Assembly (NCBI GenBank): GCA_021813385.1
Contig: JAKAKT010000040.1
Coordinates: 1 to 50,921, forward strand
Direction: 5' to 3'
Length of the DNA stretch: 50,921 bases
Source of the DNA: Microcaldota archaeon
GTDB taxonomy: Archaea; Micrarchaeota; Micrarchaeia; Burarchaeales; JAKAKT01
Each line of letters opens with the position of its first letter. The stretch's first letter is position 1. The notes beneath the pieces were generated by a model that was not told where the DNA came from, made no database searches, and worked only from the letters and a program-made list of their open reading frames with translations. This document shows, in pieces, positions 18,456 to 37,410 of this stretch. A program made the translations under genes and the position numbers.

Positions 18456-18689
18456 GGGCCCGTAGCTCAGCTTGGATAGAGCGACACCCTCCTAACTCCT
18501 CGGCACTCCCTTGGGGGAGGGTCAGGAGGAGCCTGAAACTGGGGAGGGGGTGGAACCCCCTCCGCGGTTCGGAAAGGTGAAGGCCACGTGTTCAAATACA
18601 TCCCTTTCTTTTTAAGAAAAAGAAAGGTCTGTATCAACCCCAAAGAAAAACTACTGACGGGTTGATTCTTGAAAATCACGTCGGGCCCG
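18456..18689 (+). tRNA. tRNA-Arg(CCT) with two introns: anticodon loop (about 18495-18574) and T-loop 59/60 (about 18597-18675); CCA not encoded
   Basis: Exons assemble to a 75-nt cloverleaf: GGGCCCG TA GCTC AGCTTGGATA GAGC G ACACC CTCCTAA GGTGA AGGCC ACGTG TTCAAAT CACGT CGGGCCC G; anticodon 18491-18493. Confidence 0.88.
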
Positions 18690-33269: not shown

Positions 33270-33502
33270 ATTCCCCCTCCGTGCCTTAGAATGAGTAATA
33301 CTTTGTATCTCTTCTAGAATATAAATCTTCTTGGATTCCGGTTGCCATAACTGGCCAGTTCTTCTAAAAAACTCCGAATTCCGAGATGTGTGCCTTCGGA
33401 GGGGCTGAAACGGCAAAAAGAAGCCCTAAAACTACCCGGAATCCGAATTTAACCTGCAGTAGGGGAATTTCAAGCACCCTTTTATAAGTTCGGTTGCAAA
33501 GG

Positions 33503-33880
33503 GAGAACTTGCGTGGGAAAAAAGAGAAGACGAGAGATTATGTTCGCGGGGGGAATCAGGAGGACCAATTTGTGCTCGGGCACAAATGGTCCATTTTTGC
33601 CTTGGGGCAAAAATAGGACCCTGAAACTGAAGGGGCCGACAAGTGTTCGAGCACTTGTGGCCCATTTTTCCCATCAGGGAAAAATAGGGGGCGGAGCCCC
33701 CCTGCGGTTCGGGGGGGAACTTGCGTGGGAAAAAGTTTAGGAAGACGAGAGGTAAAGTTCGTTGGGGGGTATCAGGAATAGCCAGAACTGAAGGGGGCGC
33801 TCCCCCTGCGGTTCCAATTTTTCGCTCGAGCGAAAAATGGACCATTTGTGCCTTGCACAAATTGGTCGGCACTGGAAAGC
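33503..33880. repeat. Intergenic array of nested hairpins in two ~212-bp-offset related units; candidate structured ncRNA/mobile RNA element
   Basis: Direct repeat GAACTTGCGTGGGAAAAA…GAAGACGAGAG…GTTCG…GGGGGG(A/T)ATCAGGA at 33505 and 33717; hairpins at 33564-33590, 33591-33617, 33633-33663, 33662-33688, 33687-33701, 33814-33840, 33841-33866. Confidence 0.8.
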
Positions 33881-33927
33881 AAGGGTCCGAGAGTTTATAA
33901 CGGGCGAGCGAGTGAGTTGTGTTTGTT

Positions 33928-36900
33928 ATGGCCGAGGATATAACGCCGCATGTTGAGAGGTTCCGCGACTTCTTCGAGTCGAGCCCGAAGATTTCTGGGG
34001 CAATTGAGCTTGTTGCAATGAGCTACCCGGAGAAGAAGAGCTTCGATGTCGATTGCTCGGAACTCGGGAGATTCGATTTCAGGATTGCCGACTTCCTAGT
34101 GGAAAAGCCTGATGTCGGCATAGAGGCTGCAAGGCTTGCGGCAGCTGATTTGGGCAGAGATAAAGTGGAAGCGGGGGTAAAGTTCGAACCCCATGTCAGG
34201 TTCTTCAACCCCCCCAGAGAGAAAGAACTTTTAATCCAGGATGTCGGCTCGCTTCAGATTGAGAAGCTCCTCTCTCTCGAAGGGGTCATAACGAAGAGGG
34301 CCGAGGTTAGGCCCAAGGTCAAGGTCGCGGTCTACAAGTGCACCAAGTGCGACGCAGTCGTCAAGGTGCCGATGACGAAGAAAACCATTGTGCCTCAGGT
34401 GTGCGATGTCTGCAAGAGGAGGGCTCTCGAGCTTTCCGAAGAGGATTCATATTTTGTCGATTTGCAGAAGGGCGAGATGCAGGAGCTTCTCGAGAGGCTG
34501 CACGGGGGGGCCCCAGCAAGCCACATCGAAGTCTGGATGGAAGACGATTTGGTAAACACGGTTATACCCGGGGACACCGTCGAGATAACCGGGATACTTA
34601 GGATAAGGCCCCCGATTCCCGGAAAAGGCGGTGGAGACTCTTATTCCAAATATATTGATGTCATCCATATCCAGAAGGTCCAGCGGGAGTTCGAGGAGGT
34701 CGAGATAAGCAAGGAGGACAAGGAGGCCGTGATTGAACTCTCTAAAGACCCGAGGATTTTCGAAAAAATCGTCAAGTCGACTGCGCCGTCCATTTACGGT
34801 CACGATGAGATTAAGGCAGGGGTTGCGCTCCAGCTCTTCGGGGGGACCCCTGACAAGAAGCTGCCCGAGGGGGGGAACATCCGAAGCGACATCCATTTGC
34901 TGTTGATTGGTGACCCGGGAAGCGCGAAATGCGTAGATGGTGACACCAAAGTTGTTCTTGCTAACGGTTCCATTGAGAGAATAAAGGATATAGTTGAAAC
35001 TGAGCTCACAAAGAAGACAGTTGAACGAATGAGTGACGGAATTTATGCGAGAAGCAACCACGACGTATTATCGCTAGACCAGGACGGGAAGGTTGAAAGC
35101 GAAAAGGCCCTTGTGTTCTGCAAGCTTGAGGCTCCGGAACATCTTTTTAAGGTCAAGACGTCAACTGGCAGGAGTGTCACGACCACCCCCATTCATCCGT
35201 TTTTCGTTTTGCGCGACGGAGTCGTAAAAGCAATAAAAGCGGAAGACTTGAAGAATGGGGAATTTATTGCGACCCCGCGCATCTTGCCGGTAAAAGGAAG
35301 CTCGCAACCGCTTCCTGCAGTCAAGAGAGGAAAAACCAGCGCAAACCACATAAGGAATCCGGAATTCATTACTCTGGCTTTCGCGCGGATTCTCGGCTAT
35401 CTTACGGGCGATGGCTATGTGCGCAAGATCGGCACGTCGTATGAGGCGAGCCTCACAAACTGCGATGACCTATTGCTCGATGATTTTAGGAATTCACTCC
35501 AGTCTGAATTCGGGCTGAAGACAAGTTTGAAAATTGATAAGCGAAACGGCGTGCGAAGCGCTTCTGCTTTTTCGGTTGAACTGGGTGGCATCCTTGAGAG
35601 AATGGGGATGCTCGCAAATTCCCAGGAAAAAAGAGTGCCGAACGAGATTCTTAAAAGCCCCAACGATGTCGTGCGGGAGTTCGTCCGCGCTTATTTCGAT
35701 TGCGAGGGCTCGGTATCGAAAGGGAAAAGAGAAGTTTGCGTTGTTTCCTATAGCCGCGAGCTTTTGGAACAAGTTCAGATACTTTTGCTTAGGTTCGGGA
35801 TAATTTCACAGCTCCATGAAACGCATTCAAGGGCCACCAATTCGACTTCTCACGAGAAAACGGAATATTACCGGCTGCACATAAGCGGAGAGAATGTGAA
35901 GTTATTCTATGAACGGGTAGGTTTCGTTTCTGTTGAGAAACAGAGGAAATTGAATAGCAAACTGGCCGGCAAGGGCTTCAACACGAACATTGACGTGATT
36001 CCAAACCTTAAGAACATGCTGAGGAGCACTCGGCTTGCGCTCTCGATGAGCCAGTTTGACCTCGGGATTCCGAGGACCACATATCAGCATTTCGAGAGAG
36101 GGGACAGGAACCCGTCACGCGCTACGTTGCGAAAGATAGTTGATGCTCTCGAAAAGAAACTTCGAGGCATGGATTCAGCCCAAAAGACGATTGTGGACAA
36201 CCTGGCCCTTCTTGAGATGCTTGCGAACTCGGATATATTTTGGGATAAGGTGAAGGTTGTTGAGAGAGTGGAATCGAAAGATGAATGGGTGTATGACCTA
36301 CAGGTAGAACCTTCGCACAACTTCATCGCTAACGGGATGATGGTCCATAATACGAGGATTCTGCAGTATGTCACCGACCTCGCGCCAAAAAGCATTTATG
36401 TGAGCGGAAAAAGCGTGAGCGGGGTCGGGCTGACTGCTGCTGCCGAGAGGGATGAGCTCAGCGAAGGAGGCTGGACTCTGAAGGCGGGGGCTCTTGTTCT
36501 AGCTAGCGGCGGGATGGTTGCGATTGATGAATTCGACAAGATTGAGGATACGGAACGGGCTGCGATGCATGAGGTTATGGAAAGCCAGACCGTCTCGGTC
36601 GCTAAAGCCGGCATTGTCGCGAAGTTCAAGGCGAAGACTTCGATTCTCGCAGCAGCGAATCCCAAGTTCGGGAGGTTCGACACGAACAAGCTCCCTGGGG
36701 AGCAGTTCGACATTCCCAATACTCTTCTCTCCCGTTTCGACCTTATTTTCCCAATTAAGGACATCATGGACGAGGAGAAGGACAGGAGGCTCGCCGAGTT
36801 CATCCTTCGCTCGCACGAGGCGGCTGCCCTGAAAATCAACCTGCTCCAGAAGGATGAAACCATCATACCTCACGACTTGATGAGGAAATACATCGCTTAT

Positions 36901-37410
36901 GCCCGAAAATACGTCAGGCCGAAATTGAGCAAGGAGGCTACCGAGAGAATTAAAGACTATTACGTCGAGATGAGGAGAATGGGGGCATCGCAGGGGACTG
37001 TCCCGATTACACCGAGATATATTGAAGGAATGATACGGTTATCTGAAGCATCAGCAAAAGCAAGGTTGAGCGAGGTTGTTGAGCTCTCGGATGCTGAACT
37101 CGCAGTAAAGCTGAATGATTTCGTCTTGAGGCAGATTGCCCTTGATAAGGAAACCGGGAAAATCGATGTGGATATTGTCGCAACTGGGCAGCCAAAATCG
37201 AAAGTCGAGAAGGTGAACGTGATTCTAGGGCTTGTCCGGGACATGCAAAAGGAATACGACCTTGTGGAGATTGGGAAAGTGATTGAGCAGGCGGAGAACT
37301 ACAACATGGACCCGGTTACTGCAAGAAGGCTGATTGAGGACCTGATTGCAAAGGGCGAGCTGTTCAAGCCGAAGCCTGGTTTTATTAAGCTTGTGCGGCA
37401 GTATGATTAG
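33928..37410 (+). CDS. mcm: MCM replicative helicase precursor containing an intein
   Basis: MCM N-term with zinc motif CTKC…CDVC, LLIGDPGSAK//TRILQYV Walker A, MVAIDEFDKI, LLSRFDLIFPI; TATA-like TTTATAA at 33893-33899 upstream of ATG 33928. Confidence 0.96.
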   Translation: MAEDITPHVERFRDFFESSPKISGAIELVAMSYPEKKSFDVDCSELGRFDFRIADFLVEKPDVGIEAARLAAADLGRDKVEAGVKFEPHVRFFNPPREKELLIQDVGSLQIEKLLSLEGVITKRAEVRPKVKVAVYKCTKCDAVVKVPMTKKTIVPQVCDVCKRRALELSEEDSYFVDLQKGEMQELLERLHGGAPASHIEVWMEDDLVNTVIPGDTVEITGILRIRPPIPGKGGGDSYSKYIDVIHIQKVQREFEEVEISKEDKEAVIELSKDPRIFEKIVKSTAPSIYGHDEIKAGVALQLFGGTPDKKLPEGGNIRSDIHLLLIGDPGSAKCVDGDTKVVLANGSIERIKDIVETELTKKTVERMSDGIYARSNHDVLSLDQDGKVESEKALVFCKLEAPEHLFKVKTSTGRSVTTTPIHPFFVLRDGVVKAIKAEDLKNGEFIATPRILPVKGSSQPLPAVKRGKTSANHIRNPEFITLAFARILGYLTGDGYVRKIGTSYEASLTNCDDLLLDDFRNSLQSEFGLKTSLKIDKRNGVRSASAFSVELGGILERMGMLANSQEKRVPNEILKSPNDVVREFVRAYFDCEGSVSKGKREVCVVSYSRELLEQVQILLLRFGIISQLHETHSRATNSTSHEKTEYYRLHISGENVKLFYERVGFVSVEKQRKLNSKLAGKGFNTNIDVIPNLKNMLRSTRLALSMSQFDLGIPRTTYQHFERGDRNPSRATLRKIVDALEKKLRGMDSAQKTIVDNLALLEMLANSDIFWDKVKVVERVESKDEWVYDLQVEPSHNFIANGMMVHNTRILQYVTDLAPKSIYVSGKSVSGVGLTAAAERDELSEGGWTLKAGALVLASGGMVAIDEFDKIEDTERAAMHEVMESQTVSVAKAGIVAKFKAKTSILAAANPKFGRFDTNKLPGEQFDIPNTLLSRFDLIFPIKDIMDEEKDRRLAEFILRSHEAAALKINLLQKDETIIPHDLMRKYIAYARKYVRPKLSKEATERIKDYYVEMRRMGASQGTVPITPRYIEGMIRLSEASAKARLSEVVELSDAELAVKLNDFVLRQIALDKETGKIDVDIVATGQPKSKVEKVNVILGLVRDMQKEYDLVEIGKVIEQAENYNMDPVTARRLIEDLIAKGELFKPKPGFIKLVRQYD
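34930..36351 (+). other. Intein (about 474 aa) within MCM Walker A, with LAGLIDADG-type homing endonuclease and an internal HTH_3-like segment
   Basis: Starts CVDGDTKVVLANG after GDPGSAK, ends PSHNFIANGMMVHN before T; endonuclease motifs ILGYLTGDGYV and FVRAYFDCEGSV. Confidence 0.95.

Follow-up and report, generated by a model that had tools for sequence, protein, structure and literature searches.

A dispersed family of tiny, hairpin-forming elements with a predicted intrastrand triplex in Micrarchaeota

Introduction

Short non-coding repeats are found dispersed in many genomes, and several kinds have been described. The BoxC and TM repeats of enterobacteria are short, G-rich, intergenic sequences without strand bias, present in about two dozen copies per genome, that fold into an intrastrand purine-motif triplex (PMC4666352). 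REP/BIME palindromes and IS200/IS605-type single-stranded DNA elements insert without target duplication. MITEs are small, non-autonomous dispersed repeats with terminal inverted repeats and a short target duplication of fixed length. SINEs and the tRNA-gene-targeted retrotransposons of compact genomes (e.g., PMC5006619) show a fixed 3' end, a variable 5' end and flanking duplications of variable length, and tRNA genes serve as safe targets in gene-dense genomes. Double-hairpin or repetitive hairpin elements have been described in mitochondria (PMC2800124).

Here we analyze a stretch of 50,921 nucleotides from a Microcaldota archaeon (assembly GCA_021813385.1, contig JAKAKT010000040.1), hereafter "the window". 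An initial annotation of the sequence described a tandem, structured RNA-like array upstream of mcm that shares a core with the anticodon-loop intron of a tRNA-Arg gene, and proposed a structured noncoding RNA or an RNA-level mobile element. Below, genomes are designated G, contigs C and loci L; G000 is the genome that harbors the window. By MCM sequence, the nearest named genomes are Candidatus Micrarchaeota (about 50% identity).

Architecture of the repeats in the window

The observation made in the initial annotation holds, and its extent is larger than reported. Both units are present upstream of mcm: GAACTTGCGTGGGAAAAA is found at 33501-33522 and 33713-33734 (95% identical, 212 bp apart), GAAGACGAGAG at 33526 and 33741, and CCCCCTGCGGTTC at 33698 and 33802. 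The common core is an element of about 60 nt that we named E. The first copy, E1 (33548-33712, + strand), has an eight-base segment S, the putative third strand discussed below, at 33548-33555 and ends with CGGTTCGG at 33705-33712. The second copy, E2 (33764-33869, +), has its S segment at 33764-33771 and is identical over 53 of 53 nt to a copy at position 21061 of contig C41 of the same genome (BLAST, E 4.6e-21); other copies in the genome were detected down to E ~1e-5. The 386-nt stretch folds far better than shuffled sequences (z -7.1), although three nested double hairpins, described below, contribute much of that value.

A third copy, E3 (18514-18572, +), scores 74.6 bits (E 6.4e-16) with a covariance model of E, with the caveat that this copy was in the training set of the model. 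E3 lies in the anticodon-loop intron of a gene (18456-18689, +) that folds as tRNA-Arg(CCU) once spliced in silico, with exons at 18456-18495, 18576-18597 and 18677-18689 and with a second intron (18598-18676) in the T loop. The exact splice points are inferred; E3 ends 3 nt before the proposed 3' exon. ARAGORN misses the unspliced gene. A tRNA-Lys gene of this genome (L099) likewise appears to carry introns in the T loop as well as the anticodon loop.

Three refinements can be made. One is that E1 is long because its core is interrupted by two inserted modules of about 57 nt, while E2 carries a third in reverse orientation. Another is that the 5' segment shared by both units, assigned to the array in the initial annotation, is flanking DNA duplicated around E1: the upstream copy (33501-33547, +) includes a short leader ending in TTCG, and the downstream copy (33713-33763, +) starts at the exact 3' end of E1 and runs up to E2 (score 29 against a null maximum of 14). 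The third is the identification of the host gene at 18.5 kb, described above. The "tandem array" is better read as one element inserted beside another with flanking duplication, plus nested insertions of a different family.

The nested modules, named M, belong to a second, unrelated family with the organization GGACC-hairpin-GGTCC-hairpin-GG(A), in which the stems vary and the GGTCC joint is kept. M1 (33562-33620, +; 82.6 bits, E 8e-18) lies in loop 1 of E1, between TCAGGA and the closing stem; M2 (33633-33691, +; 79.5 bits, E 4.2e-17) lies in the apical loop of E1; and M3 (33811-33868, -; 69.5 bits, E 1e-14) splits the 3' arm of the closing stem of E2, whose final GG is at 33868-33869. The three copies were in the training set of the M covariance model used for scoring. 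The model finds 15 matches in G000, 27 in G001, 12 in G002 and 6 in G004, a genome without E; some of these are the same place matched on both strands. About eight of the places in G000 lie inside E. Downstream of the repeats, the mcm reading frame (33919-37410) appears to contain an intein (CVDGDTKV ... VVHN).

E is a family dispersed in Micrarchaeota

A covariance model built from 11 copies of E with inserts removed finds about 15 clear copies in the home genome. Matches were detected in 23 of 60 relatives at E<=0.1 and in 51 of 246 genomes of the phylum Micrarchaeota at E<=0.001; at the latter cut-off, 22 copies were found in G184, 21 in G242 and 17 in G040. None was found in seven control genomes, two of them Micrarchaeota. 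Conservation linked to mcm was discarded, as no significant E was found in loci L065-L090 around mcm of other archaea. A viral source was also discarded, on a search of viral contigs with a single pattern that gave no hit.

No Rfam family reaches its gathering score in this region. A resemblance to 16S/23S rRNA fragments, noticed by eye only, was discarded because no Rfam rRNA match was found in the window or region, and a resemblance to group II intron domain V (GCGGTTC) was also discarded, as by eye the AGC triad is lacking.

The initial annotation would have been contradicted by the absence of further copies and of covariation, and neither was the case. On 108 copies, all 14 helix pairs show changes on both sides, 95% of cells are paired, and the covariation score is 0.431, compared with 0.172 ± 0.007 in shuffles and at most 0.129 in slid controls. 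The alignment was fitted to the model, which favors the structure, but the slid controls are far lower.

The 5' G-run mirrors the purine arm of the inner helix

The eight bases that precede TC[A/C]GG are the mirror image of the mismatch base plus the purine arm of the inner helix: GGGGAGGG with GGGAGGGG, GGAGGGGG with GGGGGAGG, GGGGGGAA with AAGGGGGG, GGAGGGAA with AAGGGAGG, and GGGGGTGG with GGAGGGGG. Over 49 distinct combinations, the mirror match is 6.35 of 8 positions, compared with 4.80 ± 0.14 when partners are shuffled, while the direct-repeat match (4.63) equals its shuffles. G faces G, A faces A, and T sometimes faces A, as in an antiparallel purine-motif triplex according to the rules given in PMC4666352. 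Because related copies are not independent, the departure from shuffles overstates certainty; however, the A or T moves to different positions in different lineages. Mirror covariation of this kind is the signature of an intrastrand purine-motif triplex, a structure reported to form in DNA and not in RNA (PMC4666352).

These observations bear on the possibility that E is a small structured RNA, either a regulatory RNA or a SINE-like retroposon copied into DNA by target-primed reverse transcription. A fixed 3' end, a variable 5' end and duplications of variable length, as found in E (see below), are those of such retroposons; a nearly invariant U.G pair in the stem would suit RNA, and the E copy that lies in a tRNA intron is probably transcribed there. 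However, we know of no RNA explanation for the mirror covariation, and E shows no orientation preference relative to protein genes (46 against 52 for gene 3' ends). Furthermore, no reverse transcriptase (PF00078) was found in the E-rich genomes G000, G001, G002, G005, G040, G035, G039 and G042, although these are MAGs, not all complete, which leaves some doubt. We thus consider the RNA explanation unlikely, albeit the strongest of the alternatives. Therefore, the interpretation proposed in the initial annotation is supported only in part: a structured, mobile-like element with further copies and strong covariation is indeed shared by the gap upstream of mcm and the tRNA intron, but its RNA nature is not supported.

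Flanking repeats, leaders and empty sites

In 44 of 125 copies, the DNA directly after E is repeated upstream of it (score >=14), and 50 exceed every one of about 40 null comparisons. The downstream repeat starts immediately after the 3' end of E (..CGG). Where the upstream repeat abuts E or its leader, lengths run from about 16 to 89 nt, the longest being an identical 89-nt pair that abuts E in G040 (contig C14). In both this case and that of the window, a second E, full or truncated, follows, and tandem duplication is a fair alternative there. More than half of the copies show no detectable flanking repeat, and most tRNA-abutting copies have none, so duplication may not be part of every insertion.

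The 5' side of E carries a lineage-specific leader: TTTGATTCG in G039 and G042, GTGAAGTG in G040, and a hairpin of about 100 nt plus AATAATATCCATAATT in many copies of G184 (L240-L253), which thus show a larger composite form. In G242, copies L262, L264, L266, L276 and L279 share a lineage-specific conserved insert (..AATTCATGTG..) in the apical loop of E. Splicing from mRNA of the upstream repeat together with E was also considered, but inspection by eye revealed no common junction pairing.

Empty orthologous sites were detected. Orthologs of guaA and rtcB in sister genomes have a single gene end and no E, and the same is true of the G180 ortholog of a G039 gene. In one locus (L264, in contig C3 of G242), E lies exactly at the stop codon of a gene that looks like rtcB (tRNA-splicing ligase; identified by eye), and the last ~13 codons are repeated downstream using synonymous codons. 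Where the repeat covers a gene end, the two copies differ mostly at synonymous sites, with a tally of 35 synonymous to 22 non-synonymous codons over ORFs >=150 aa (some of which may be spurious frames), while about 22% synonymous would be expected at random. The strongest cases are rtcB, a gene in contig C11 of the home genome and a G035 gene (4 to 0 each); locus L201, with 0 to 2, is a counter-case. A duplicate simply decaying in place would not be expected to show this pattern, and a tentative explanation is exchange of alleles between lineages.

The mostly synonymous differences between the copies would also fit another explanation: E copies might be tiny integrated units spread by site-specific or homologous recombination at conserved tRNA and gene ends, the flanking repeats being att-like cores and the upstream copy being an incoming, already diverged gene end. 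tRNA 3' ends and gene 3' ends are typical integrase targets, and in guaA the downstream copy is nearer to orthologs than the upstream one, although the repeated segments are too short for firm phylogeny and guaA and rtcB remain ambiguous. On the other hand, each copy would need its own core, the 89-nt pair is identical, and in G039 the two copies resemble each other far more than the G180 ortholog, indicating that this duplication arose locally. A foreign, previously diverged gene end was thus discarded as the general rule, and the recombination scenario is considered doubtful.

E often abuts tRNA genes

Of 166 copies, 48 lie within 120 nt of a tRNA detected by ARAGORN. Where the tRNA is downstream, nearly all abut the 3' end of E at -2 to +10 nt, 20 of them at +2 or +3, either at the tRNA 5' end in sense or at the 3' end in antisense. 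Other copies lie inside tRNA introns (E3, L143 and L136). As ARAGORN misses tRNAs with T-loop introns, the tRNA share is underestimated.

One cannot fully discard that E may be a stationary functional repeat, such as an insulator or a replication/recombination site next to tRNA genes, moved only by rearrangement and tandem duplication. Precise tRNA abutment in G040 and other genomes, the presence of E at the same point of the same tRNA-Ser in G040 and G128 (though of different subfamilies), and the tandem arrangement in the window would fit this view. However, E is scattered in many unrelated genes with empty orthologous sites, and near-identical copies in G184 suggest recent spread. This possibility therefore seems very unlikely.

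Reverse transcriptase, TnpB and Y1 transposase do not track with E

No mobilising protein was identified. In addition to the lack of reverse transcriptase described above, Y1 transposase (PF01797) is absent from G000, G001, G005, G035, G039, G040 and G042, ruling against a Y1/HUH element. TnpB does not correlate with E either: the E-rich genomes G007, G035, G039 and G042 have no TnpB/Cas12f-like nuclease, while the E-less G009 and G044 have 14-16. This lack of correlation led us to reject the idea that E is a TnpB guide RNA (omegaRNA type) with the 3' flank as guide.

Discussion

The explanation that we favor, with moderate confidence, is that E is a non-coding mobile DNA element whose top strand folds on itself. 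A closing stem (CC..GAACTG / CGGTTCGG) would stack on a G-rich/C-rich helix, and the 5' G-run would fold back as a third strand over the purine arm, giving an intrastrand purine-motif triplex. Dispersal, compensatory changes in the helices, mirror covariation, a fixed 3' end with a lineage-specific leader, flanking direct repeats of variable length and exact abutment to tRNA genes are direct outcomes of our analysis. In contrast, formation of the triplex is inferred from sequence covariation alone, and the mechanism of mobility is also inferred: an enzyme supplied in trans would recognise the folded strand and join its fixed 3' end to a staggered break, preferentially at tRNA gene ends, and repair would then duplicate the stretch between the nicks. 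In this view, E1 entered the window just upstream of an older E2 with a duplication of about 46 nt (or the pair arose by tandem duplication), E3 settled in a tRNA intron where it would be spliced away harmlessly, and M inserted into the loops and stem of E.

A bolder possibility, which remains tentative, is that E represents a new class of archaeal mobile element: a single DNA strand of about 60 nt, folded as a stem-capped intrastrand triplex, that is recognised by an unidentified enzyme, inserted at tRNA gene ends and other staggered breaks, and leaves flanking duplications of variable length. If so, it would be a mobile element defined by a DNA triple helix whose third strand covaries through evolution, giving natural comparative evidence for intrastrand triplexes as functional structures. 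It would also explain many tRNA-adjacent repeats and some tRNA intron contents in Micrarchaeota, and would point to an unidentified enzyme acting on folded single-stranded DNA in these tiny, uncultured archaea.

Comparison with described systems reveals partial resemblances. Like MITEs, E is a small, non-autonomous dispersed repeat, but its ends are a G-run and CGG without terminal inverted repeats, its flanking duplications (16 to ~90 nt) are not of fixed length, and no cognate transposase was found. As in REP/BIME and IS200/IS605-type elements, which are also small, non-coding and dispersed, recognition of a single-stranded hairpin is plausible; the flanking repeats of E are, however, long and variable, and Y1 transposase is absent from the seven genomes named above. 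E shares with SINEs and tRNA-gene-targeted retrotransposons a fixed 3' end, a variable 5' end, variable-length flanking duplications and tRNA genes as targets; however, no reverse transcriptase was detected and a DNA-type fold is indicated. In form, the nested M module is, like the mitochondrial elements, a double hairpin inserted in intergenic DNA, and keeps a GGTCC joint while its stems vary. E also resembles BoxC in predicted fold: both are short, G-rich, intergenic, without strand bias, and have about two dozen copies per genome, and E has the third-strand purine tract, mirror-symmetric to the purine arm of a hairpin in the same strand, that is expected of an intrastrand purine-motif triplex. 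However, BoxC is a bare Y-R-R(H) motif of ~37 nt that was not associated with mobile elements in the study of Holder et al. (PMC4666352), whereas E has the opposite order (class I, third strand first), a closing stem, exact ends, a leader, flanking repeats and tRNA abutment, and is found in archaea.
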